Source: Lachnospiraceae bacterium
GTDB taxonomy: Bacteria; Bacillota; Clostridia; Lachnospirales; Lachnospiraceae
Direction of reading: 5' to 3'
Assembly: GCA_029054245.1 (NCBI GenBank)
Contig: JAIDFQ010000028.1
Coordinates: forward strand, 1 to 58,705
Length of the DNA stretch: 58,705 bases
Shown here: positions 23,071-36,105 of the stretch, one piece after another
Layout: each line of letters opens with the position of its first letter
Position numbering within the stretch: position 1 is the first letter of the stretch
The notes under the pieces: model-generated
Told to the model about the DNA's origin: nothing
Databases searched by the model: none
What the model saw: the letters and a program-made list of their open reading frames with translations, nothing else
Made by a program: the position numbers and the translations under genes

Positions 23071-24354
23071 TTAATAAACGACGCGGTCGCGCCCTTGTTT
23101 TTTTCCAAGGTAGAGTTTTTCATCTGCCTCTCTTATTATGTAATCGATTTTTTCTTTGCTGCCTTCCACAATGCCAAATGTCATGGTAATACGGATTCCC
23201 TTTTCTTTCTGATAGTCTATGCCTGTATTGCGGATCTGTTCCATCAGTTCCTCCACAGATTTTACCGTGTCCTCCAGACCATAGTTTTCAAATATCAAAA
23301 GGAACTCCTCTCCTCCCCACCTTACAGCAAATCCCTTTCTGTGCATATGCGCCTTTAATTTATCTGCAAGATGGATTAATACAATATCACCGCACTCATG
23401 CCCATAAGTGTCGTTTACCTTTTTAAAATAATCCACATCTCCCAGCGCTATACTAAAGGGGACACCGGTTTTCCTAAAGTCGCTTTGTACCTGCGCAAGC
23501 ATCTTTTCTCCGCTCCGCCTGTTATAAAGCTTCGTCAGAATATCCTGTTCAATTAATTCCCTTAAGGATTTCTGCATCATTACCGCATGTTTTCCCATTC
23601 CACCCAATTCATCGTTCCGCCTGAGCACGTTTAGATCCAGCTGCGCACGCAGATTACCGCTAGTGACCTTTTCCAGAAATTCTTCCATCTTTCGTATTGC
23701 GTCAACCAGCTTCCCCGAAAATCGAATCGTAAAAAATCCTGCAAGCAAAATTGCCGTAATCGCCAAAAGCAAAATCGGCAATATCGCCCGCCGCACAAGT
23801 CCGTCTACATACTCTGACGGTTTGCCCACAAAAATCATTCCGACACAACTGCCGTCAGAATTAGAAAGCGGCGCATAATAAGCAAAGTATTTCTTATTGT
23901 CGATAAGCACACTCGGATAAAACGCTTCTTCTCCGCTCTCCAATACATCCTTTGTCACCACCGGATTGGACTTTGTTCCCGTCATACGCCCACCCTGATC
24001 ATCCATAATGGTCGTAAGAATCCGTATATCCTGGTAAAAAAAAGTGACATCAGCATCCGTATGTTCTTTCACTTTATCAACAATAGAAAAATCACCGCTG
24101 ATCTGATATTCCCCTTTGAACAGAGTAACACTCCCATCCTCATTTATCACATGATAATCTCCCGGATACAATTCATCATACATCATGAGGATGGTATTGC
24201 TTAAATTCTTCAGTCCTTTTTGTGCCTCCTGCCCAATAGAATCCGCCAGACTCTTGGTACTTAAAGCCGTTATAACCAATACCAACAGCACAATAGGTAT
24301 AATCGAGATCCTAAGCAGTGCCCAGTATAAGCTGTTTTGTTCTATCTTTTTCAT
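23071..24354 (-). CDS. Membrane diguanylate cyclase: Cache-HAMP-GGDEF
   Basis: About 427 residues. Membrane segment 1 (IIPIVLLVLVITAL), an extracellular single-Cache-like sensor (about 40-190; DVTFFYQDIRILTTI, YFAYYAPLSNSDGSCVGMIFVG), membrane segment 2 (AILPILLLAITAILLAGFF), HAMP (about 215-265) and GGDEF from about 265. The signature is RWGGEEFLLIF, so active. The product inhibition site (RxxD five residues before GGDEF) reads RKGF, so it is probably not inhibited by c-di-GMP. It is the last gene of the mixed transporter operon, 26 nt behind a binding lipoprotein. The ATG at 24354 follows GGAGGGGCGG. Confidence 0.88.
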   Translation of the reverse strand: MKKIEQNSLYWALLRISIIPIVLLVLVITALSTKSLADSIGQEAQKGLKNLSNTILMMYDELYPGDYHVINEDGSVTLFKGEYQISGDFSIVDKVKEHTDADVTFFYQDIRILTTIMDDQGGRMTGTKSNPVVTKDVLESGEEAFYPSVLIDNKKYFAYYAPLSNSDGSCVGMIFVGKPSEYVDGLVRRAILPILLLAITAILLAGFFTIRFSGKLVDAIRKMEEFLEKVTSGNLRAQLDLNVLRRNDELGGMGKHAVMMQKSLRELIEQDILTKLYNRRSGEKMLAQVQSDFRKTGVPFSIALGDVDYFKKVNDTYGHECGDIVLIHLADKLKAHMHRKGFAVRWGGEEFLLIFENYGLEDTVKSVEELMEQIRNTGIDYQKEKGIRITMTFGIVEGSKEKIDYIIREADEKLYLGKKQGRDRVVY

Positions 24355-24380
24355 CCGCCCCTCCAATAGTGCAATGGATT

Positions 24381-26768
24381 CTAACGGTTCTCATTTACAT
24401 AAATCTGCACTCTGCTCTGGATGATGGAAGCAACATCCTTTGCACTCTTTTGTCCCGCAAAATACGGCGCCGACTCTTCCGTAATAATGTTCAACAGCAT
24501 ATCATCCTGTTTGTAAACCTGCGTAAAACTGTAAAGCTGTTCCATAAAGTCTTCCGTCTCCTGCTTTGTCATCGGTGGGATGATGATTTCCTGACCATTG
24601 ATATAATACGTGCTGTCATACTCCTGTTTATTCCCGTTTTCATCCATATAGTAGGGTTTTTTCATCGCCTCCGCAGCAAGCTCATTCAAACGCTTTATGC
24701 TGAGAGGGAAGCTGTAATTAATATTTTCTTTCTGATATTCATCGGTGAGGAAGGTACGCAAAAACGCCCATGCCCCCTCTTTATTGTTTGACTTTGCAGA
24801 CAATGCAAACTGCATATCCGCAGAAATGACGGAGCCGTCTTCATTGGAAGAAGGAAAACCGATCATAGTGACCTTTTCTCCAAAGCTCCCCTTTTCAATG
24901 TTATTATAATCTCTGAAATTGCTAAGATAGTATACGGATGCAAGTACTTTCCCGTCCCGCCACATAGACTCATAATTGTTCCAATATTCATCTGTATAAA
25001 TATCATCATCTATCACATCCGGGAAGGTTCCAATAAACTCAAGCATTTGAATAAATTCATCTGAATTAAAATTACAGGTGCCATTCTCCCAGTCAATAAA
25101 TTGGTTTCCAGACATGGACATACAATACATAAGCATCGTGCTTTTCGTCGTACTTTCAAGCAGCTGTGTCCCCTCCGGCTTTGAGGCAAGCAGATCCATC
25201 GCCTCCTGTACCGTCCATCCTCTCTCTTCTCCCACATCGGAAGCCTTGGCAAGGATCGTATGAATGGAATAAGACGGAACCAGGGAATACATTTTTCCGT
25301 TTACAGAAAATGCTTCCAAGATATTTGGCATAAAATTATTGATATCTAGTTCTTCATCCTTTTCAATATATGGCTTGAAATCTTCAAAAAGTCCCTTTGA
25401 AATATAACTTTCCATCGGCATTGCATAATTGACCAAAAGAATATCCGGCACCTTCCCTGAGGCAATATCTGTATTGAGCCTGTTAATCCCTGCCATATAA
25501 TCGCCGTCCGTAGCATATATGGAACCATAATCCAGAATGGAGATCCTATAATCTTCATTTTCTTTGTTAAACTTAATTGCACTGCGCCTCACATTCCAGT
25601 TAGAATCAGCCATAGCTAGCACAATGACCTGTTTCTCCTTAACCTCCTCTGGAGGCACCTTTGTAAATAAGGCAAGCACATTATTCCCCGTCTCCATATC
25701 ATCATATGTTGCAAAAAAATCTTCGCCATTCATTCCTATTACCTGATATAGACCATAAATGTCCAAATCAGAATCTATGAAACTCATGATCTGCTTTTTG
25801 TCCGAATCTCCTATGTTATATCCATACACACCGTAACTGTCCGTAAGGTACAGATCGTACCCCTTCCCCGCATAAAAGAAATAGTTATAGGAGGATCCCG
25901 GAAATTGATTCTTCTCTCCGATTGTTCCGGTTTCCAAATCAACAGTTGCCATAGACATGCCGTTTTCTTCATAAAAAACAGCAATCAATCCTCCATCCTC
26001 AAGCGTAATGAAGTTTGCACTTTCAAACACACTTTGGTTTCCATTCTGAGACATGACCCCTAAGTAATTACCCTCAAAGTCAAATTTCATAAATATGCCA
26101 TATGAATTGACGTAAATTCCTCTCTCCTTGTCAAGAATCAGATCCCTTACGTACAAATACCCATTATCCGCCCCCAACTGTGCAAAATCCGGTATGTCAT
26201 TGAGCTTGACAGAAAACAACTCCTCTCCGGAAAGGGTCATCTTTACAAGATAATAATCATCTATATACTCTACTTCTCCTGCATCCTCGAATGCCATATC
26301 ATCTTCAATCCCATCGTCTGCCGTATCCTCTCCGTCCTCTTCTGAAGGTTCCTCCTGCGGCATATCTGCTGGATGATAATCATTCTTGATGCAATAGATG
26401 TTTGCATCATCGTCCATGCTGATGGAATTGATACTCGCATACTCCATCAGGGGAACGCGGTGGCTTTCCCCTATCGTTCCATCTTCTTTCAGTTCAAAGA
26501 AGACGATTGCCGAGTCCGATCCATCATCCGACCATGAATATCCATACGCATAAATCTTATCCCCTGCGCGGACAATCTGATTGATATTCTGGTCTTTCAC
26601 CCCCAAGTCCACGTCCTGCATCCTGTATACATAATCTTTGGAAACAGCTGCCGCCTGTGGATCATTTACTTCCTTTTTTCCGCATGCAGCAAAACAAATG
26701 ACCGCTAAAGATACCATCGCAAGTAAAATGATACTCTTTTTCAATCCTCTTTTTAAAAGTCCTGCCAT
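24381..26768 (-). CDS. Extracellular solute-binding lipoprotein with N-terminal propeller-like region (paralogue 1)
   Basis: 795 residues. Lipoprotein signal with Cys29 (VICFAAC). Residues about 30-385 look like a beta-propeller: repeated short blocks on a GDKIYAYGYS, DANIYCIKND, NGYLYVRDLILD and KGYDLYLTDSYGVYGY pattern, with a very acidic loop (EEPSEEDGEDTADDGIEDD). Residues about 385-795 resemble a family-1 sugar-binding protein (VIVLAMADSNWNVRRSAIKFN, PDILLVNYAMPMESYI, ALSAKSNNKEGAWAFLRTFL). It ends IQSRVQIYVNENR, nearly the same as the second lipoprotein (31992-34244). The ligand is unknown. The gene overlaps its upstream neighbour by 16 nt. Confidence 0.8.
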   Translation of the reverse strand: MAGLLKRGLKKSIILLAMVSLAVICFAACGKKEVNDPQAAAVSKDYVYRMQDVDLGVKDQNINQIVRAGDKIYAYGYSWSDDGSDSAIVFFELKEDGTIGESHRVPLMEYASINSISMDDDANIYCIKNDYHPADMPQEEPSEEDGEDTADDGIEDDMAFEDAGEVEYIDDYYLVKMTLSGEELFSVKLNDIPDFAQLGADNGYLYVRDLILDKERGIYVNSYGIFMKFDFEGNYLGVMSQNGNQSVFESANFITLEDGGLIAVFYEENGMSMATVDLETGTIGEKNQFPGSSYNYFFYAGKGYDLYLTDSYGVYGYNIGDSDKKQIMSFIDSDLDIYGLYQVIGMNGEDFFATYDDMETGNNVLALFTKVPPEEVKEKQVIVLAMADSNWNVRRSAIKFNKENEDYRISILDYGSIYATDGDYMAGINRLNTDIASGKVPDILLVNYAMPMESYISKGLFEDFKPYIEKDEELDINNFMPNILEAFSVNGKMYSLVPSYSIHTILAKASDVGEERGWTVQEAMDLLASKPEGTQLLESTTKSTMLMYCMSMSGNQFIDWENGTCNFNSDEFIQMLEFIGTFPDVIDDDIYTDEYWNNYESMWRDGKVLASVYYLSNFRDYNNIEKGSFGEKVTMIGFPSSNEDGSVISADMQFALSAKSNNKEGAWAFLRTFLTDEYQKENINYSFPLSIKRLNELAAEAMKKPYYMDENGNKQEYDSTYYINGQEIIIPPMTKQETEDFMEQLYSFTQVYKQDDMLLNIITEESAPYFAGQKSAKDVASIIQSRVQIYVNENR

Positions 26769-27853
26769 CTATCCTTTTCCCCTTTCATTTTCAAAACCAT
26801 CTGATCCTTCACATCGATCAGAAAATGCCCGGCATCCTTTAAGGTCCATTTTCTATGCCGCCATTTGCCAATTACATACACCGCAATAATGATGATGGGA
26901 ATCATCAGGAAAATAAACTGAAATAATAAAATCAGTGCCTTTACATCCTCCCACCCTCTTGCGATATTCTCCCAGTAGGGGAACCTGACCGCACTGATCT
27001 GCATGGATCTGGTTCCATAGTCAAGAATAACAGGTATCAGCGCCTCTTTCAAGTAACGGGAGGAATTTTCTACCATGACCATATCTGTTTCTTCTACTCC
27101 CAATTTTTCTTTGATACAATTATAAACAAAGCCCTTCACCGGGTTAGGCGCTGTCACCTCATAGACACTGATTCCACTGCTGGTTCCATATTCCGCAAGA
27201 GTCTCATTTGAGACATAAACAATCGTCTTATCAAGTCCTGCCCGCTCGGCAAACCTGCCTTCCTGCCGTTTGATCACCCCCGCCACATGGTGAGGTACAT
27301 TTCCAATCCATACCGTCATTCCAGCAATATCACTGGATCCAAATAACTGCCAGGCAGCATCTTCATCCAGCACAACGGCATCCTTCATCAAATCGCTGCC
27401 CGAAAAATAGCCGCCGGATACAAGTTGTATCGGATGAAATAAGAAGAAATCTCCTCCCACTCCTATGGCTGACGCTTTTAACTGTCCTTTTTCACTTATG
27501 ACCTCAATCGTCCCCATAGAACTGTATGCATCGATAAACAGCCTTTCCCCTTTTTCTCCTTTTTTGTCTTCCTCGGAAAGCACCTCATTAAGGCTCTGTT
27601 CCAACTGTTTTTCAAAGCTCATAATCATATATTCATCCACTTCCACGCGCTCTGCAAAAAAGCAGCTGACCTGGGCGCTGCCGCCCTCCTCATCCCAGCG
27701 CGCTGCCGCCTGCTGGTCGATCAAATGCGCCACCTTAAAATCAGACCAGAGGGTGAGGATCAGATACAGAATAAAAGACATCAAGGCAATCAACGAAAAC
27801 ACAATCTGTTTTATGGATAAGGATTTAAAAAAATCTTTTATCTTTAAAGCCAT
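26753..27853 (-). CDS. Membrane protein with MacB/FtsX-like periplasmic-core domain
   Basis: 366 residues. One N-terminal membrane segment (IVFSLIALMSFILYLILTLW), an extracellular domain of about 230 residues with MacB core features (VSGGYFSGSDLMKDAVVLDE, key SGGYFSGSDL; WQLFGSSDIAGMTVWIGN; HHVAGVIK), then one further hydrophobic segment near the C-terminus (ALILLFQFIFLMIPIIIIAVYV) and a basic tail. FtsX/MacB permeases usually have four membrane segments; only two are seen, so this may be a reduced permease or a substrate-handling subunit. No ATPase partner is encoded nearby. It sits between the HlyD-like adaptor and a binding lipoprotein. Confidence 0.6.
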   Translation of the reverse strand: MALKIKDFFKSLSIKQIVFSLIALMSFILYLILTLWSDFKVAHLIDQQAAARWDEEGGSAQVSCFFAERVEVDEYMIMSFEKQLEQSLNEVLSEEDKKGEKGERLFIDAYSSMGTIEVISEKGQLKASAIGVGGDFFLFHPIQLVSGGYFSGSDLMKDAVVLDEDAAWQLFGSSDIAGMTVWIGNVPHHVAGVIKRQEGRFAERAGLDKTIVYVSNETLAEYGTSSGISVYEVTAPNPVKGFVYNCIKEKLGVEETDMVMVENSSRYLKEALIPVILDYGTRSMQISAVRFPYWENIARGWEDVKALILLFQFIFLMIPIIIIAVYVIGKWRHRKWTLKDAGHFLIDVKDQMVLKMKGEKDRWQDF

Positions 27854-27889
27854 CTGTCTTCTCCTTTCCGCCCTAGCCGTCTCATAAGT

Positions 27890-30001
27890 TTATGATTCGT
27901 TCAGCCTTACCTGCTTTCCAGCCTCCACCGGCTTAGTGGAAGTGGTAATGACATATTCATATCCGTAAAGTCCGGCTGAAATAGCCGTATTGTTATCATC
28001 AGAAGCTAAAACCTCTACATCCACTCTTGTGGCAATATAACGGTTGCCCAGCGGGCTGCTCTTGGATTCCACGATCAAAATGAACTTGCCGTTATTGTCC
28101 TCCCTGACGGCACTGTTTGGCACCACAAGCTCATAATCCGTACTTCTCTGTCCCACCGAAACATTAAGTGCCTGCCCTGCCTGGATGCTGGATCCTGTCA
28201 CATTAAATTCAAGCAGTTTATTCTGTCCCGGCTTGTCAGGATCCGGCTTAATTGCCGCTAAAATCACCTGCACATCGTCATAATACCATGCATTTTGAAG
28301 CTCTGCCGTATCTCCCACCTGAACCTTTCTTGCCTGTTCGTTGGTCACAGAAATCGTCAGTGTATATCCTTTTCCTTCCACCTGAATCACCGCAGCAGTC
28401 TCTTCCGGCTTGGTCGTCTCGCCTGCCTTGTAGGCAAGAGAAGTAACGGTTCCCGCCACAGGCGCTGTGATGGCAGCTCCCATGGACTCTTCTTTCAGCT
28501 TGGCAATTTCTGCCCTCTTGTCTGCAATATCTTTGCTCGTCTTTGAAAGGTCAAGCTCTGCATTGATATCCGCATTCATCTCCGCCTGCTCTTCCTTCAG
28601 CAGATCATACACTGCCTGCGCATTCTTAAGGGCAGCTTCCGCATTGGCAAGCTGGTTCTGATAGGAAGCGGAAGTATACTTATTTGCATTGGTCTGGTCT
28701 GCCAGATTCTTTCTTGCCTGGTTAAGCTTATCCTGAGCAGACTTTACCGTGTCCCCTGGCTGATAAGTAATCGCCGATATATTATTAAGCTCTGCTTCTT
28801 TTGCTGCCAGCTGCTGTCTTAGCTTTGCCAGCATTTCTACATTGCTGTCATATCCTGAAAGATTCTCTTCCGCCTCAGAAAGCTTCTGAACGGCATAATT
28901 ATATTGCGCTTCTGCGGTATCATAATCCTGCAGCAAAGTCCTGTAGCTCTCATAATTATCGCTTGTGTCAATCCATGCTTTCAATTCATTGATATTTTTG
29001 CCTTCGCCGTAACCTCCAGATTTTGCTGCATCATAAATTTCCTCCAGCTTTTTATCGCGTAGTGCTTGTGCTTCATCACGCATACTCCTATATTCTGCAA
29101 GCTGAGTTGTTTTATCGACAGGCAACGTTATTCCCTCTAGCGAAACATTTCCACTATTATTACCACTGTTTTCACCGCCAGTATTACCACTTTGATTATA
29201 GCTAAAATTGAAATCACCATTATTTATTATCGTATCTGTTACACTTCCCGCACCATTGATTAACGTTTGCACATCTTCTATCTGCCTTTTCAGCTCATTG
29301 ATCTCATTTGTGACCTGCGCCTTTTCAGCAGCAATCTTATCATTAAATGCCCTCTCCGCATTCGCCGCTGAGTTCTGTGCATTTGTAAGATCAAGGTCAG
29401 CCTGTGTCACCGCACTTTCCGCCTCTATGGTATTGACATCCGCATTATTGCTGTTGACAGTGCTTTGCAGGGATAAATTATTCAACGCATCCGTACACTC
29501 CTTCACCCGCTTTTCCGCTGCATCCAGCCTGCTTTGCATATCTGCCACTTTTGCCTGCAGGGAAGCAAAGCCATCAATATTTCCATTAGCCACCTTGCTG
29601 ATGACCTCAGAAGACACATTATTGCCGAACAGACCCTTCATATAGGCAAGCTGCAGATCGTCAAGCTCTTTCTCTGCCTGCTTTAATTCCTCACTCTCCG
29701 CATCCTCCAGATAATAGAGAACCTGATCCTTTTCCACCAGATCGCCCTGCTTAACTGCGACACTGGAAATTACCCTTGAACCCTTTACCACAACATTATA
29801 AGGGTCTGTTGCCTCCACATTTCCTGTTCCCCGTACCTTGGCTGTAATGGAACCCCTCTGCACATACTGGGTCGCCACCTCCGGCAGGGAATAATTCATT
29901 ATCGTATTTGAAAAAAAAGTAAGCAGCAGCATGATCGTCAAAAAGATGATTGCCGCATTTTTGACCCACTCTCTTCTCTTTCTTCCATCCGTTTCATTCA
30001 T
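27890..30001 (-). CDS. HlyD/RND-type membrane-fusion adaptor, unusually long
   Basis: 703 residues. One N-terminal membrane segment (AAIIFLTIMLLLTFFSNTI), then a split biotinyl-lipoyl domain (SVAVKQGDLVEKDQVLYYLED at about 85-105 and GAAITAPVAGTVTSLAYKAG near 505-525), between which lies a long coiled-coil hairpin of about 390 residues, rich in K/E/A/Q/N. The hairpin carries a Gly/Asn-rich break (GDFNFSYNQSGNTGGENSGN). Beta-barrel and membrane-proximal parts follow (LVVPNSAVREDNNGKFILIV). Typical adaptors have 350-450 residues; here the hairpin is extended. In a single-membrane cell it may span the wall. It normally serves MacB-type exporters. Confidence 0.8.
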   Translation of the reverse strand: MNETDGRKRREWVKNAAIIFLTIMLLLTFFSNTIMNYSLPEVATQYVQRGSITAKVRGTGNVEATDPYNVVVKGSRVISSVAVKQGDLVEKDQVLYYLEDAESEELKQAEKELDDLQLAYMKGLFGNNVSSEVISKVANGNIDGFASLQAKVADMQSRLDAAEKRVKECTDALNNLSLQSTVNSNNADVNTIEAESAVTQADLDLTNAQNSAANAERAFNDKIAAEKAQVTNEINELKRQIEDVQTLINGAGSVTDTIINNGDFNFSYNQSGNTGGENSGNNSGNVSLEGITLPVDKTTQLAEYRSMRDEAQALRDKKLEEIYDAAKSGGYGEGKNINELKAWIDTSDNYESYRTLLQDYDTAEAQYNYAVQKLSEAEENLSGYDSNVEMLAKLRQQLAAKEAELNNISAITYQPGDTVKSAQDKLNQARKNLADQTNANKYTSASYQNQLANAEAALKNAQAVYDLLKEEQAEMNADINAELDLSKTSKDIADKRAEIAKLKEESMGAAITAPVAGTVTSLAYKAGETTKPEETAAVIQVEGKGYTLTISVTNEQARKVQVGDTAELQNAWYYDDVQVILAAIKPDPDKPGQNKLLEFNVTGSSIQAGQALNVSVGQRSTDYELVVPNSAVREDNNGKFILIVESKSSPLGNRYIATRVDVEVLASDDNNTAISAGLYGYEYVITTSTKPVEAGKQVRLNES

Positions 30002-30043
30002 AATCTCAATCCCTTGCCTTTCCTGCGTCCTTAAAATCCGCTG

Positions 30044-31015
30044 TTATCCTTTGATTCCGCCCTGATAGGTGATTCCCTCTACCAAATAGTCCTCCCCATA
30101 CAAAAACACCAAGATCGGCGGTACCATATAAATCGTTGCCACTGCAAACGCCAGCCCGATCTCACCCGAATTGATCTTTGATAAAAAGACGGAAAGCGGG
30201 TGCTTCTCCTGATCCGATAATAAAATCAAAGGCTGCTCCACCATGTTCCAATAATCAATAAAAATCAAGATTGCGATAGAACACATTGCCCCCTTACAAA
30301 GGGGCATACAAATCCGCCTAAAAATCTGCCATTCCCCTGCCCCGTCAATCTGTGCCGCCTCCATCACCGAAGTCGGAATCCTCCTCATATATTTGGTCAA
30401 AAGATAAACCGAAAAAGGAGAAAAGATACCCGGGAGCCAGATTGCCCAATTGGTATCCAGCACATGCAGCCAGTCTGCTACCAGATAGTTGGGCACCAGT
30501 GTGACCTGATAGGGCATCAACATCAAAATAATATAAACAAAAAAGATAATTTCCTTTATACGCCCCCTGTATCTGGTAAAACCATAAGACGCGCCTGCCG
30601 CCACAAGAAGCTGAAAGACTACAATCGGTCCCACCAAAATCACAGAATTCCAGAACTTCAAAAGATATTCAGGACTTTTCAAAAGCACCGTAATATACTG
30701 GCTGAAGGAAACCATATCCGGTATAAATTTCAAATTCACTTTATCTGAAATATAAACCTTTCCTCCCGTATCTGTAGTGGCAAAAACCTGACCGTAATTT
30801 GCTGAAATCTCCGATGCAGACATAAAAGAATTGGTAATCGTCAGCACGATAGGCATTAGAAAAAGCACCGCAAAACAGCCTGCTATCATCGTTGCCAACA
30901 AAATTCTGACAAAATGTCTGGTATCCCGCAGCTTCTTTTTTCTTTTAACTTCCTTATCCCAGCGCTGCAATGCAAGTTCTTCTGCACTGTGCTTTGTACC
31001 CTTTCGCTCGCTCAT
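30044..31015 (-). CDS. Carbohydrate ABC transporter permease, CUT1 (MalG-like)
   Basis: 323 residues with about six membrane segments and the EAA loop AAQIDGAGEWQIFRRICMPL near residue 225, where the shared ATPase would dock. A soluble N-terminal extension of about 35 charged residues precedes the first membrane segment. It overlaps the upstream permease by 4 nt (ATGA), so the two make one heterodimer. No ATP-binding subunit is encoded here; CUT1 systems in Bacillota commonly use a shared MsmX-type ATPase encoded elsewhere. Confidence 0.9.
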   Translation of the reverse strand: MSERKGTKHSAEELALQRWDKEVKRKKKLRDTRHFVRILLATMIAGCFAVLFLMPIVLTITNSFMSASEISANYGQVFATTDTGGKVYISDKVNLKFIPDMVSFSQYITVLLKSPEYLLKFWNSVILVGPIVVFQLLVAAGASYGFTRYRGRIKEIIFFVYIILMLMPYQVTLVPNYLVADWLHVLDTNWAIWLPGIFSPFSVYLLTKYMRRIPTSVMEAAQIDGAGEWQIFRRICMPLCKGAMCSIAILIFIDYWNMVEQPLILLSDQEKHPLSVFLSKINSGEIGLAFAVATIYMVPPILVFLYGEDYLVEGITYQGGIKG

Positions 31016-31974
31016 CCTTCCACATCCTTTCCGAAATGATTCTCGGTAAGGAATAAAATTCCTATGATAACCACCATCACGATCGCCATCATGATTGCCG
31101 CAGCCGACATCTTCTGATAATCTAATCTACTGAATGTGTTGTTCATAAAGTGCTGCAGCATATACATCGTATCGTATGGATATTCTCCCTTTAGCAGATA
31201 GATTTCCCTGAAAACCTTAAAAGAATTAATCAGGGACATGATCGTCACGAACAGAATCGTTGAAGACATATATCTTAGCTTGATACGCCAGAATATCTGA
31301 AAGGAAGATGCGCTTTCCAATACTGCAACTTCAATGATATCCTTTGGAATACTGCTTAAGGCAGACATAAATAAAATCATATTATAGCCCAGATTTTTCC
31401 ATAAAAAAAGAATAATGATGACCACCTGTGCGTAGGGCGAATTAAGCCAGTCAACCTTATCTGCGTGGAAAAATGCCAATATCTCATTCATCATACCATT
31501 ATAGTGAAACAAAACCTGCCAAATCAAAACCACGGATGCGATAGGAACCATCATAGGGCTTAAAAAGAAGGTTCTGAACTGACTCTTAAACGGAATCTTA
31601 CTTTCCAGCATCATCGCAAGAAGCAGGGATAAAACAACTGCCAGCGGAACCGCCGATGCTGAAAAGGTCAGCGTATTCTTTGCCGCCTGCTGAAAAGCCG
31701 CATTCTGAAAAACCATGACAAAATTGTCCAGAAACACAAACTGATGACTGATTGGGTTGTCTACCACTGAATAGTAAATAACAATTAAAAAAGGCAGTAC
31801 GAAAAACAGCAGCACGCCGGCGGCGCTGGGAAACAGATATCCTGCGGATATCCATTTTCCCCTGCGCGTTCTCGGATTACTGCCGGTTTTTTCTATTTTT
31901 TTGACAGACTTTTTTGCCCCGTCATTTTCTTGCTGCAGGGCTTTTCTTTTTTCCCTGCTCTTAGAAACATGCAT
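31012..31974 (-). CDS. Carbohydrate ABC transporter permease, CUT1 (MalF/UgpA-like)
   Basis: 320 residues. A basic cytoplasmic N-terminus of about 45 residues, then six membrane segments, beginning ISAGYLFPSAAGVLLFFVLP. The EAA loop reads EVAVLESASSFQIFWRIKLR near residue 210, with the usual Gly replaced by Ser/Ala. It partners with the MalG-like permease overlapping its stop codon and is preceded by a binding lipoprotein with a 17-nt gap. Confidence 0.9.
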   Translation of the reverse strand: MHVSKSREKRKALQQENDGAKKSVKKIEKTGSNPRTRRGKWISAGYLFPSAAGVLLFFVLPFLIVIYYSVVDNPISHQFVFLDNFVMVFQNAAFQQAAKNTLTFSASAVPLAVVLSLLLAMMLESKIPFKSQFRTFFLSPMMVPIASVVLIWQVLFHYNGMMNEILAFFHADKVDWLNSPYAQVVIIILFLWKNLGYNMILFMSALSSIPKDIIEVAVLESASSFQIFWRIKLRYMSSTILFVTIMSLINSFKVFREIYLLKGEYPYDTMYMLQHFMNNTFSRLDYQKMSAAAIMMAIVMVVIIGILFLTENHFGKDVEG

Positions 31975-31991
31975 TCCTATCCTCTCTCGAC

Positions 31992-34244
31992 TTACCTGTT
32001 CTCATTTACATAAATCTGCACTCTGTTCTGTATGATATTTGCCACATCAGCTGCTGACTTCTGCCCTTTGAAGAATGGCTCTGTCTCTTCCGTAATGATA
32101 TTTATAATCTGCTGGTCTGTATTTCCAGAAACCTTCTCGGCAGATGCAATTAGTGCCTTTACCGCATCCACCTCCTCCTGTGTGGCTGCCATAATCTCAA
32201 TGGTAAAATCATTATATCCCCATGTCGTCTTAGGATTTTCTATCTGATTTCCATCCTCATCCTCATAATAATTCGGCGTCATATCCAGTTCAAACTGCTT
32301 TTCAAGGGACTCTTTTCTGATTGGGAATCCCCAATTTCCATGCTCATTAACCAGACTATCCTGATACTCCTTTTCAATGAGCGTCTTCATAAATTCCCAG
32401 ACCCCGTCTTTATACTTCGATTTGGAGGACATGCCGAGGCTTCCGCTTGCAGATACGACCAGATTTCCCTTCTGCTCTTTATTCGGGAATCCCACATAAG
32501 TGATTTCCTCTCCGAACATTCCTCTCATCATCTGATATTCCTGAACGGAACTAAGGGTGGTCTGCATGAGCAGAACCTTATCTTCATGCAGCAGAGTCTC
32601 AATTGACTCCCGCTCGCTGTAATCCACATCCGCATCATCCGGAAATCTGGCGGCAAATTCAAGCGCTCTTATAAATTCTTCACCGTTAAAGAAGCATTCG
32701 CCGCTCTCCCAGTCAATAAACTCATCAATATCCTGGTATACACAATACCAGAGCATGGTATTTCTGGAATCATACATCATCACATAAGGCGGATTGACCT
32801 CATCCACCAGATCAAGCATTTCCGTGAGCGTCCACCCATTTTCCTCCCCCACTAGAGAAGTTTTGGCTGCAATGGAGTTGATGTAGAACAACGGCATGAT
32901 TCCATATAAGCTGCCGTCTACTTCATATGCTTTCAATATATTTTCCAGATATTCTTCTTTTTTGATGCCACTTTTCTCCATATAAGGGTATAAATCTTCT
33001 AAGACACCCTTACTTGCATACTGGGCAAAATCCACCTGAGACAAATTGATCAAATCCGGGCAGTTTGCCGTGGTCAAATCTGCCCCAAGCTGTATCAGTC
33101 CTGACTCATAATCATCCGCGCCGTATTCTCTTACTACGATACGGTACTGACTATTGGTCTTATTAAAATCTATAATCTGTTTTCTGATATCTGAATCCAT
33201 CCACATGGTACCAAAAACAATTTCATCCTTGGCTGCCACCTCTGATCTGTCCTTCTTGGTAAAACAAACCAGCTCATAAGCTGCTCCGCCCTCTTCTTTG
33301 TATTCCCTCGTGATTGCCCAGATACGTCCGTCAGAAAGTTCTCCCACATACTGTATATTCTCTGCATTGATGTCCACATCTATCCAGTTAAATAATGTCT
33401 CCTTCGTTGCTGCGGACAAATCCAAAACAGATACTTGACTATTGCTGCTAACCAAAAAGCTCGTGTTCATTCCCGTATATAACGTATCGCCCCAGCCAAT
33501 TTCAAGATTTCCAACAGTTTCTCCGATTTTTTTCCCTGCCAGATCGATTTTCTTTAGCTTTCCGTCAACAGATGCATATACATCTCCTTCTTTTGAAGCA
33601 GCCATACTGTTGATCCACTGATCTCCAATGTCGATATCGCATAGCTTTTGATAATTTTTGTCTAATACACAAATCATGCTGTTGCCATCGCTCAGATAAA
33701 TATTTCCCTGCGCATCGCCGCACATACGCTGTATATATATGTACTCTGACTCTGGAAAGCGTTCTGTGATGTCGCTTTCCTCGATTACCGTCCCATCTTC
33801 CGCAGATATCCTGAATGCAGACATCTTAAAGCTGTTCTCAACCACTTCCCCTTCTTCGTCAAAAACATAGTTATCACTGCCGCTGACCATGGTAAGCGTG
33901 CCGTCCTCGTTTACAATCATACCGTAAATATTTTCATTTTCGCCCAGCTCAAACAGCTGCTGTGCCTTATTTTCCATCAAATCATATTTGTATACAACAC
34001 CGCTATATCCTGCTTCTTCATCCCAGGTAGAGGCACTGATATATGCAACATCCCCTGCCGCCACAAAGGAATCCATATAATCACATGTAAGATCCAACTG
34101 CATAAACTCGGGGACATACACGCTTCCTTCTTTCGCGCCGTCTTCTCCTGCCTGATTTCCTCCGCTCTTTCCGCACCCGGCAAGCGCTGTAAAAAGAATC
34201 CCTGCAAGTACTGCTGCCAAAGTGAACTTTCTATTCTTTTTCAT
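31992..34244 (-). CDS. Extracellular solute-binding lipoprotein with N-terminal propeller-like region (paralogue 2)
   Basis: About 750 residues. Lipobox LAGC with Cys24. As in its paralogue at 24381-26768, the N-terminal ~340 residues have propeller-like repeats (GDVAYISASTWDEEAGYSG, GNIYLSDGNSMICVLD, GDVYASVDGKLKKIDL) and the C-terminal ~400 resemble a sugar-binding protein (FNKTNSQYRIVVREYG, CPDLINLSQVDFAQYAS, GMSSKSKYKDGVWEFMKTL), ending IQNRVQIYVNENR. The ATG at 34244 is chosen because GAGGT precedes it. It is the first gene of the seven-gene operon. Ligand unknown. Confidence 0.82.
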   Translation of the reverse strand: MKKNRKFTLAAVLAGILFTALAGCGKSGGNQAGEDGAKEGSVYVPEFMQLDLTCDYMDSFVAAGDVAYISASTWDEEAGYSGVVYKYDLMENKAQQLFELGENENIYGMIVNEDGTLTMVSGSDNYVFDEEGEVVENSFKMSAFRISAEDGTVIEESDITERFPESEYIYIQRMCGDAQGNIYLSDGNSMICVLDKNYQKLCDIDIGDQWINSMAASKEGDVYASVDGKLKKIDLAGKKIGETVGNLEIGWGDTLYTGMNTSFLVSSNSQVSVLDLSAATKETLFNWIDVDINAENIQYVGELSDGRIWAITREYKEEGGAAYELVCFTKKDRSEVAAKDEIVFGTMWMDSDIRKQIIDFNKTNSQYRIVVREYGADDYESGLIQLGADLTTANCPDLINLSQVDFAQYASKGVLEDLYPYMEKSGIKKEEYLENILKAYEVDGSLYGIMPLFYINSIAAKTSLVGEENGWTLTEMLDLVDEVNPPYVMMYDSRNTMLWYCVYQDIDEFIDWESGECFFNGEEFIRALEFAARFPDDADVDYSERESIETLLHEDKVLLMQTTLSSVQEYQMMRGMFGEEITYVGFPNKEQKGNLVVSASGSLGMSSKSKYKDGVWEFMKTLIEKEYQDSLVNEHGNWGFPIRKESLEKQFELDMTPNYYEDEDGNQIENPKTTWGYNDFTIEIMAATQEEVDAVKALIASAEKVSGNTDQQIINIITEETEPFFKGQKSAADVANIIQNRVQIYVNENR

Positions 34245-34271
34245 GTCATACCTCATAATCTTGTGTCTTTG

Positions 34272-34300
34272 TCAACATTTCCATACAAACTATAGCATAT
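34272..34300 (-). promoter_or_regulatory. Promoter of the mixed transporter operon
   Basis: Minus strand TTGTCT, 17-nt spacer, TATAGT, about 30-60 nt upstream of the lipoprotein start. No clear hairpin separates it from the GH13 gene upstream, so read-through is possible. Coordinates are accurate to a few bases. Confidence 0.6.
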
Positions 34301-34344
34301 AATGCCTAGTCAGACAACGCGGATAATCTTAATTTTTTCCTAAC

Positions 34345-36105
34345 TTATTTCTTAATTCTCCGAATCAAAATTCCATTTTTCAGAAGCGTACTATCAATAT
34401 AATGACGTTTATAAAGCACTTCCCCTTCCCTTGGGATCTCTATGTCGTCTTCCTCGCAGTTAATGATGACCTCCACATAATTGTCCATCCATCCCACTTT
34501 GGTAAATTCAATGACCCTGCGCCTATTGATCTTATTGGGAAAATGGAAATTACGGTCTCTAAGAAGCGGTTCTTCCTTGCGGAGCTTGATCAGACTGCGC
34601 ACCATCTCAATCCGCTCGTCATACTCTCCTGCCTCAATCTTGCTCCACGGCATACATCTTCGGCAGTCAGGATCGTGGCCTCCCTCCATAGCGATTTCTG
34701 TTCCATAATAAATGCAAGGGCTTCCCGGCATGGTAAACAGTACCGCCAGCTGCTGGAAAAACTCGTCCATATTTTTCACATCCGAGCGCAGGCGCTTGGT
34801 ATCATGGGAGTCTAACAGGTTGAACATAACGTCATTGGTCTGCTGCATATAACCTGTATAACATCTGTTGATGGTATATTCAAAATCTTCATTTGACAGT
34901 GATTTGTCAATCCAGAAGTCCTTGATACTCTCTGCCAGAGGATAATTCATAACCGCATCAAACTCATCTCCTCTAAGCCACGGCATTGCGTCATGCCAGA
35001 TTTCCCCCAGAATATAGATATCCGGTTTAATTGCCTTCATGCGCCGGCGCAGCTCCTTACAAAAAAGATGGGAAATCTCATTTGCCACATCCAACCGGAT
35101 GCCATCGACATCATATTTTCTCACCCATTCCTCGCACACATTCAAAAAATATTCCCGCACCTTGGGATTATTGGTGTTCAGTTTGGGCATATCATCATAA
35201 AATGCAAAGCTATAATATTGCCTTGTCCGTGCCGCACCTTGATCAAAATGGAAAGGCCAATCTTGTATCATGAACCAATCATAGTACTCCGATTCCGGCC
35301 CTCTCTCTACCACATCCCGCCAAGGCGCAAAATTGGCGCCGCAGTGATTGAACACCCCGTCCAACATAATGCGGATGCCTCTCTTATGTGCCTCCTGTAC
35401 CAGCGTGCACATGGTATTCTCATCCCCGAAATGAGAATCAATCTTTGTATAATCCGAGGTATCGTATTTATGAGCGGAGGGCGACTCATTGACAGGTGTC
35501 AAATAAAGCCCCGTAATGCCAAGTCCCTCCAAATAATCCAGCTTATTGATGATTCCCTGCAGATCTCCACCGAAAAACTCTTCATTCCGAACGCTGCCCG
35601 ATTCCCTCCATGGAAGCACACCTTCAGGATCATTAGAAGAATCCCCATTGCAGAACCGTTCCGGAAAAATCTGATACCAGACCGTCTTATTGACCCATTC
35701 AGGCGTTTCATTGATATCGCCCGGATTCATCCATGGATAGACAAAACACTGCCGGCTTCTTCCCTCCAGATTCATCTGTGCCTCACTGACGATGCCGTCC
35801 TCGAAATAAAACCACTTTTCATTCTCAGTCTTAATCTCAAAAAAATACTTAAGCCGTTTATAATAAGGCTCAATGGTTGTCGTCCACCATAGCTGGTTTT
35901 TCAGTCTCTTTTTGAAGGGGATATTCATAGCATCCCCCGTCCACATCTCACCGCCGCCTAAAATCCCCGCACTAAATGGATCTCCCTGGATGATGTTGAC
36001 ATACTGCACATCACATCCTGTCCTGATATTGATAACCAGTCGCTCCGCATCCAAGGGATAACAATAATTATCATTTGCCCTGTGATAAACCGCATTAAAA
36101 TCCAT
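34345..36105 (-). CDS. GH13 alpha-glucan hydrolase, neopullulanase/cyclomaltodextrinase-like
   Basis: 586 residues, no signal peptide, so cytoplasmic. An N-terminal CBM34-like beta domain (about 1-125) precedes the (beta/alpha)8 barrel. GH13 residues are intact: D339 nucleophile in VDGIRLDVANE, E368 acid/base in YILGEIWHD, D435 in LLDSHDTKR, plus the region-I motif LDGVFNHCG. WYQIFPERFCNGD is typical of subfamily GH13_20, which opens cyclodextrins and cuts pullulan or short maltodextrins. It precedes the transporter operon, suggesting maltodextrin-like cargo, though this is not shown. Confidence 0.92.
   Translation of the reverse strand: MDFNAVYHRANDNYCYPLDAERLVINIRTGCDVQYVNIIQGDPFSAGILGGGEMWTGDAMNIPFKKRLKNQLWWTTTIEPYYKRLKYFFEIKTENEKWFYFEDGIVSEAQMNLEGRSRQCFVYPWMNPGDINETPEWVNKTVWYQIFPERFCNGDSSNDPEGVLPWRESGSVRNEEFFGGDLQGIINKLDYLEGLGITGLYLTPVNESPSAHKYDTSDYTKIDSHFGDENTMCTLVQEAHKRGIRIMLDGVFNHCGANFAPWRDVVERGPESEYYDWFMIQDWPFHFDQGAARTRQYYSFAFYDDMPKLNTNNPKVREYFLNVCEEWVRKYDVDGIRLDVANEISHLFCKELRRRMKAIKPDIYILGEIWHDAMPWLRGDEFDAVMNYPLAESIKDFWIDKSLSNEDFEYTINRCYTGYMQQTNDVMFNLLDSHDTKRLRSDVKNMDEFFQQLAVLFTMPGSPCIYYGTEIAMEGGHDPDCRRCMPWSKIEAGEYDERIEMVRSLIKLRKEEPLLRDRNFHFPNKINRRRVIEFTKVGWMDNYVEVIINCEEDDIEIPREGEVLYKRHYIDSTLLKNGILIRRIKK

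Follow-up and report, generated by a model that had tools for sequence, protein, structure and literature searches.

A seven-gene operon on the minus strand of a 58,705-nt stretch of Lachnospiraceae DNA (GenBank assembly GCA_029054245.1, contig JAIDFQ010000028.1, positions 1 to 58,705; hereafter the window) joins the permease pair of a CUT1-type importer to proteins of exporter families. Four of the genes, encoding the permeases PermA and PermB, an HlyD-like adaptor and a MacB-like protein, form a fixed block across related genomes. With moderate confidence, we propose that the operon encodes a type I (CUT1-like) ATP-binding cassette (ABC) importer that is powered by an MsmX-type ATPase and carries a collar of adaptor and MacB-like protein together with propeller-bearing solute-binding protein (SBP) lipoproteins. 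The seven open reading frames (ORFs) occupy positions 34256-23071 in the ORF listing of the window, as follows (TM, transmembrane; NBD, nucleotide-binding domain).

31992..34256, minus strand: SBP1, a 754-aa lipoprotein whose beta-propeller-like N-terminal half is fused to a CUT1-type solute-binding domain (Pfam, structure-profile matches)
31012..31974, minus strand: PermA, a CUT1 permease with a clade-specific change in its EAA motif (Pfam, alignment)
30044..31015, minus strand: PermB, a CUT1 permease with a canonical EAA motif and an enlarged first extracytoplasmic loop of 60 residues (Pfam, alignment)
27890..30001, minus strand: HlyD/MacA-like adaptor, 703 aa, with N-terminal TM segment, lipoyl domain, barrel, long variable hairpin and membrane-proximal domain (Pfam, NCBIfam)
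26753..27853, minus strand: MacB-like periplasmic-core protein, 366 aa, with two TM segments, no FtsX match and no NBD (Pfam, hydropathy)
24381..26768, minus strand: SBP2, a second lipoprotein of the SBP1 family, its gene overlapping the MacB-like gene by 16 nt (Pfam)
23071..24366, minus strand: sCache_3-GGDEF diguanylate cyclase, an accessory gene (Pfam)
34289..34317, minus strand: promoter-like site upstream of SBP1, a consensus match only and not above chance

All seven ORFs are confirmed on the minus strand, and the distances between them in transcription order are 17, -4, 42, 36, -16 and 14 nt. A first-pass annotation, made from the sequence alone, had described such a unit with gaps or overlaps of at most 42 nt, and Pfam domains confirm the two CUT1 permeases, the HlyD-like adaptor and the Cache-GGDEF cyclase that it named. 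It was also right that the operon lacks an ATPase gene, no ABC ATPase being found by Pfam among the operon ORFs.

A fixed block of importer and exporter-family genes

Queried against 250 family genomes, the MacB-like protein had matches at E ≤ 1e-3 in 45, 25 of them strong (E ≤ 3e-24, the window's own included) and 20 weak. We examined the loci of the 24 foreign strong matches and of the best 80 of 541 relatives in GTDB genomes, where carriers include Parablautia intestinalis, Lachnotalea glycerini and the cultured Kineothrix alysoides and Acetatifactor muris (loci L099 and L106). The resulting set comprised 103 distinct MacB-like proteins, counting that of the window, and 90 loci with at least 4.5 kb of upstream DNA. 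By automatic count, HlyD, PermB and PermA genes lie upstream of the MacB-like gene in 88 of these 90 loci, and the other two proved complete on inspection: in L086 a 318-aa PermB is overlapped by another ORF, and in L068 all genes are present, with 500 nt containing a 90-aa ORF between HlyD and MacB. Profile-based picking located a MacB-like gene in every locus, including L095, L102, L106, L115 and L130. PermA-PermB-HlyD-MacB is thus a fixed block, whose importer and adaptor parts stay together throughout this gene-neighbourhood search. An SBP gene stands upstream of the block in 73 of 85 distinct loci and directly downstream in 81 of 93. Outside Lachnospiraceae the distribution is thin, with matches at E ≤ 1e-54 in 2 of 179 phylum-wide genomes of other families. 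Mirror-tree correlations of 0.53-0.70, calculated without species control, were not used.

Both permeases match BPD_transp_1 (Pfam), providing the permease pair expected of CUT1 and type I ABC importers. A PermB profile was run against the 250 family genomes with nine candidates scored per genome, and 25 of its matches make up a first tier at 470-588 bits, while 56 make up a second tier at 190-278 bits, whose loci we call the sister class. All 56 were examined, 20 of them partly preselected for HlyD and then the other 36 unselected. HlyD adjoins PermB in 55 of these 56 loci (L279 shows just 66 aa at a contig end), whereas it occurs, as a weak 135-aa match in L243, in 1 of 35 ordinary CUT1 loci; this linkage argues that permeases and adaptor belong to one unit. 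A MacB-like protein lies near PermB in 39 of the 56. The ordinary controls were 35 of 43 PermB hits at 140-162 bits (L241-L258 and L312-L328), and four borderline loci at 170-172 bits (L239, L240, L310 and L311) were excluded from the control count. After the borderline CUT1 pair of L310, the place of HlyD is taken by a three-TM ORF of 225 aa that matches MacB very weakly, and at L311 by a 370-aa four-TM ORF.

The HlyD-linked permeases are also set apart by ancestry and by shape. In a midpoint-rooted PermB tree of 76 rows, made by a quick method and without the later 36 second-tier loci and the second control set, all 53 HlyD-linked sequences fall on one side of a branch with an SH-aLRT value of 99; that side (55 of the 76 rows) also takes the long-branch rows L240 and L243, which are without a normal HlyD. 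The first extracytoplasmic loop of PermB measures 51-72 residues in the 53 HlyD-linked rows and 28-41 in the other 23. With 56 rows added, it reaches at least 51 residues in 85 of 88 HlyD-linked sequences and is at most 46 in 42 of 44 others, among which L309, a first-tier PermB lying right before the end of its contig, has 60 residues. Because synteny, the PermB clade and the loop data agree, the operon is not two systems joined by chance; the first-pass annotation had kept such a joining as an alternative, and it is not supported here. We read the enlarged loop as a likely docking site. Counting hits whose loci show HlyD, the HlyD-linked CUT1-like clade is present in at least 65 of the 250 sampled Lachnospiraceae genomes. 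The window genome itself carries, on contig 37 (L232 and L233), two more SBP-PermA-PermB-HlyD operons without a recognisable MacB-like gene.

The adaptor matches HlyD_3 (25.1 bits, cut-off 22.2) and a biotin-lipoyl domain in Pfam and is similar to MacA and HlyD chains, the features of the MacA-type adaptor of MacAB exporters; against NCBIfam RND_mfp it scores 73.1, below the cut-off of 94.9. Within this set of adaptors, conservation, expressed as the mean share of the commonest residue, is 0.80 in the TM segment and linker, 0.70 in the membrane-proximal domain and 0.23 in the hairpin. The sister class contains minimal adaptors of 206-253 aa beside CUT1 permeases (L231:10388-11107, L216:10360-11121, L286 and L303) as well as adaptors of up to 800 aa. 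On a reading of the four sequences, the minimal forms keep the TM, linker, barrel and membrane-proximal parts and seem to be without lipoyl domain and hairpin. Because the membrane parts are the best conserved and the minimal adaptors do without the hairpin, the shared role of the adaptor is probably exerted near the membrane, with the long hairpin optional. What a Gram-positive adaptor ring can look like is illustrated by a model from S. pneumoniae, in which a MacA-like hexamer on a MacB-like dimer extends ~154 Å outward (PMC5768738).

The first-pass annotation had described a MacB-core protein with two TM segments, and both parts of that description hold. The 366-aa protein matches MacB_PCD (33.2 bits, cut-off 27), its likeness to solved MacB periplasmic domains spanning ~87-101 residues, and a hydropathy count over the 103 distinct homologues gives two TM segments in 95, three in 7 and one in 1. 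No FtsX match was found by Pfam in the window protein. MacB is described as coupling cytoplasmic ATP hydrolysis to the outside via transmembrane movements (PMC5985334). Because the MacB-like protein has two TM segments, as against the transmembrane coupling of MacB, it is unlikely to work as MacB does.

Both lipoproteins match SBP_bac_8/SBP_bac_1 (Pfam), so that the operon holds two genes for the cognate solute-binding lipoprotein expected of a CUT1 importer. When the profile of the SBP1 family is compared with solved chains, its N-terminal half resembles beta-propellers over ~50 residues; compared with itself, this half aligns with a shift of ~45-50 residues (HHalign probability 97%). For SBP2, the N-terminal half on its own had no counterpart among solved chains. 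Both propeller-binding lipoproteins of the first-pass annotation stand as SBP lipoproteins, and a propeller-like half is matched for the SBP1 family. In two other genomes the MacB-like protein and SBP2 share one reading frame (L095:9986-13267, 1093 aa; L102:9989-13225, 1078 aa); the lipobox persists at the fusion junction, and the product might still be cut.

ATPase supply and likeness to known transporters

No MacB-type NBD is fused or adjacent in the window operon, and no exporter-type ATPase was found in the block. In a motif search, 9 of 74 loci showed ABC ORFs within 7 kb, always as separate ORFs outside the four block genes; diverged ATPases could be missed, since most loci were searched by motif. 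Relatives with an operon-borne ATPase are L198, L199 and L200 (other families, with a two-TM MacB-like protein), L202, L203, L220, L221 and L285. The four that were typed with Pfam (L198, L199, L203 and L220) combine ABC_tran, OB_MalK and TOBE_2, and three operon ATPases score at or over the NCBIfam NF008653 UgpC cut-off of 432 bits (504.1, 466.3 and 432.3). Because every operon-borne ATPase typed is of the UgpC/MalK type, these domain matches indicate that the motor, where seen, is of import type and not of MacB type. The idea of an exporter ATPase that is usual in the operon and was lost in the window alone is rejected: in searches made mostly by motif, no exporter-type ATPase was found in the block of relatives.

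The window genome holds an orphan UgpC/MsmX-type gene on another contig (C61:46298-47398, 506.6 bits). No permease gene adjoins it and the nearest CUT1 pair is ~7 kb off, which fits the earlier suggestion that CUT1 pairs can borrow MsmX. Among the 25 carrier genomes, 24 have a UgpC-type match at E ≤ 1e-90 and 20 exceed the cut-off.

In its permease and SBP families and in its UgpC/MsmX class of ATPase, the system resembles the MsmX-using CUT1 importers of the MalFGK2/UgpABCE type. It differs from ordinary CUT1 loci in that these lack HlyD-like and MacB-like genes (apart from the weak fragment noted above) and have a short PermB loop. With the MacAB, Spr0693-0694-0695 and YknXYZ pumps it shares sequence similarity in the adaptor and the MacB periplasmic core; unlike them, it has no four-TM FtsX domain, is tied to importer permeases, and showed no MacB-type NBD in its block. 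Bce-type detoxification modules consist of a ~250-aa BceA ATPase, an FtsX permease and a two-component system, and the window operon has no such ATPase and no FtsX match. Among the open-licence PMC papers listed in our searches, we saw no importer described with HlyD-like or MacB-like subunits.

Among solved structures, the nearest to the SBPs is C. thermocellum CbpC (7x0o), which the SBP1 family profile matches at E 1.1e-33. Its operon, Cthe_2125-2128, has the gene order msdC1, msdC2, an unnamed gene and cbpC (PMC8303734, PMC3492117), and a figure legend places acrA among the sugar-ABC clusters of this species (Fig. 1 of PMC9601137). By elimination from the gene list and that legend, acrA is probably Cthe_2127; we saw no discussion of this acrA in that paper. 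The genomes searched contained nothing near-identical to the locus. This transporter C thus resembles the window operon in its homologous SBP and in its series of two permeases, one gene and an SBP. It differs in that the crystallised CbpC, at 438 residues, corresponds to the SBP half only, and we saw no mention of a MacB-like gene in these reports. In a later study, which includes an insertion in the first gene of transporter C (PMC9601137), CbpC bound none of the carbohydrates tested by isothermal titration calorimetry (ITC) or nuclear magnetic resonance (NMR), an extra loop seemed to block its pocket, and growth of a transporter C mutant was normal on glucose, on cellobiose and on Avicel. 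An older ITC study (Nataf 2009) is cited as having reported sugar binding by CbpC (PMC11212667, PMC3492117, PMC9601137). The operon is reported as up-regulated on xylose (PMC7471329) and two of its genes on glucose (PMC8303734), which would fit sugar uptake and speak against a purely non-sugar function.

Proposed architecture and competing explanations

In the architecture that we favour, parts of exporter type would have become lasting extracytoplasmic subunits of a CUT1-like importer, added to its usual ones. PermA-PermB would be driven by an ATPase of the UgpC/MalK family, presumably supplied in trans by the orphan MsmX-like gene. The pattern of conservation in the HlyD-like adaptor suggests that it is attached to the outside of the permeases by its TM or juxtamembrane segment and its membrane-proximal domain, where it probably contacts the enlarged PermB loop. 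The MacB-like protein, having neither TM bundle nor NBD, may act as a passive scaffold or docking platform in the collar; synteny and the two MacB-SBP gene fusions suggest that it keeps the propeller-SBP lipoproteins close to the entry. Where the hairpin is long, the collar would extend towards the cell wall. The Cache-GGDEF protein of the window and the two-component systems of the sister class would be added regulators. By analogy with CbpC, the ligand is perhaps not a simple dietary sugar but a complex glycan or peptide from the envelope or the cell's surroundings.

Several observations weigh against this architecture. The EAA coupling motif of PermB is canonical, but in PermA the I-T-L-P-like end that ordinary permeases show is replaced by K-x-R-Y. 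Its K232 and R234 do not vary in 22 of 22 sequences, and the alteration could mean weakened coupling to the ATPase; a similar change occurs in L198-L200, whose operons hold an ATPase gene. In one carrier genome, G029, no UgpC-type gene reaches E ≤ 1e-90. Loop length also breaks the rule in both directions: there are HlyD-linked PermB proteins with loops of 23 (L286), 40 (L290) and 45 residues (L305), and a second-tier PermB with 61 residues and no recognisable HlyD alongside (L277). Of the four borderline PermB loci, L239 has HlyD and L240 is cut off by the end of its contig, while the remaining two, L310 and L311, showed no recognisable HlyD. An adaptor tube is not favoured as the shared function, given the minimal sister-class adaptors without hairpin and lipoyl domain. 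Finally, the blocked pocket of CbpC and the normal growth of the mutant also fit a non-transporting complex.

Such a complex could work by mechanotransmission, a known mode of MacB/FtsX proteins, here placed on an importer chassis: ATP-driven motion of PermA and PermB would move the adaptor/MacB collar to do work or send a signal outside, with little or no import. We think this unlikely, although the failure of CbpC to bind any tested sugar (PMC9601137), the altered PermA motif, the two-component genes that adjoin many sister-class loci, and listed flank families that are mixed and housekeeping, unlike those of ordinary CUT1 loci, all speak for it. Against it stand the retention of the permease pair across the whole block set, the frequent SBP genes on either side of the block and the sugar binding attributed to the earlier ITC study. 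It is likewise doubtful that the operon represents a new class of ABC machine, one in which an import-type motor (PermA/PermB/MsmX) drives an HlyD/MacB collar for mechanical or signalling work on the wall or on captured ligands; if true, mechanotransmission would have evolved a second time, on an importer chassis. An exporter or detoxification module, with the CUT1 genes as a co-opted motor for the expulsion of an envelope-active compound by the HlyD-like and MacB-like proteins, is improbable. HlyD and MacB_PCD are indeed exporter families, and the OmpR-type two-component genes beside sister-class loci resemble Bce-type peptide-detoxification modules. But the block has no MacB-type ATPase that we could find, the MacB-like protein has no recognisable FtsX bundle, the typed operon ATPases are import-type, and the classical exporter pattern occurs separately: in L204-L207, from other genomes of the phylum, genes for an HlyD-like protein, a 224-259-aa ABC ATPase and a four-TM MacB-like protein lie close together.

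The first-pass annotation had offered, as one of two possibilities, a surface-sensing complex that would bind a piece of glycan or peptidoglycan and report through cyclic di-GMP (c-di-GMP). The operon does end in a gene matching sCache_3_3 and GGDEF (Pfam), with an intact GGEEF motif and no evident I-site, the position that we take to be the usual one reading HRKG and not RxxD. Among loci with at least 5 kb of downstream DNA, however, 15 of 86, the window included, have within 5.5 kb downstream and on the same strand a GGDEF gene resembling that of the window (phmmer E ≤ 1e-20), and the same block stands without one in the other 71. The bearers are mostly near relatives, together with L053, L095, L099 (two ORFs between) and L102. 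Because a window-like gene is found in just these 15 loci, the cyclase is an optional accessory and not the core of the block, and c-di-GMP output as a core function is not upheld. As a Cache domain can moreover sense alone, we regard the c-di-GMP complex as highly improbable.

HlyD/MacA-family adaptors are treated as exporter parts. In this CUT1-like clade one is a near-constant partner, mostly accompanied by a longer PermB loop, and the combination would amount to an importer equipped with an adaptor. It might explain why a sugar-ABC cluster of C. thermocellum contains an AcrA-like gene, and also an SBP for which the later study detected no binding to any sugar tested. It further offers a defined gene set for asking what purpose adaptors serve where there is no outer membrane to reach.

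Flanking genes and upstream region

For the flanks of the cassette, 78 of 107 ORFs from 33 loci were scanned, with small, some opposite-strand, and ATPase ORFs omitted. Judged by the 25 commonest of 122 Pfam families, the gene content of these flanks is varied and mostly of housekeeping type, and response regulators account for three matches; no glycoside hydrolase (GH), LacI or AraC family with two or more members is among those 25, although a single GH5 turned up. In ordinary CUT1 loci, the flanks (58 of 66 ORFs scanned) hold AraC, LacI, GH2, GH31, GH43 and GH3 among 25 of 73 families. In the sister class, 32 of 73 flanking ORFs included 13 OmpR-type response regulators and 11 histidine kinases, numbers that give no unbiased rate, the ORFs having been picked by size and place. 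The OmpR-type two-component genes there (L202, L214-L233) are often divergent, and one of the 32 ORFs encodes a BlaR1-like M56 peptidase.

A GH13 amylase-family gene lies at 34345-36105, 88 nt upstream of the operon, and in many relatives an ORF of another length takes its place. A starch or glycan utilisation locus, as this neighbour might suggest, is not favoured: the gene before the cassette varies (454-aa ORFs, 584-592-aa ORFs and others, of which the window's was typed), and the GH, LacI and AraC families of the control flanks are not among the repeated cassette-flank families listed. The promoter-like site at 34317-34289 reads TTGTCT-17-TATAGT, with TG ahead of the second hexamer; such sites are no commoner than in shuffled sequence (34 found, 33.4 expected). 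SBP1 may start at 34244 instead of 34256, a GAGG standing 6 nt ahead of 34244.

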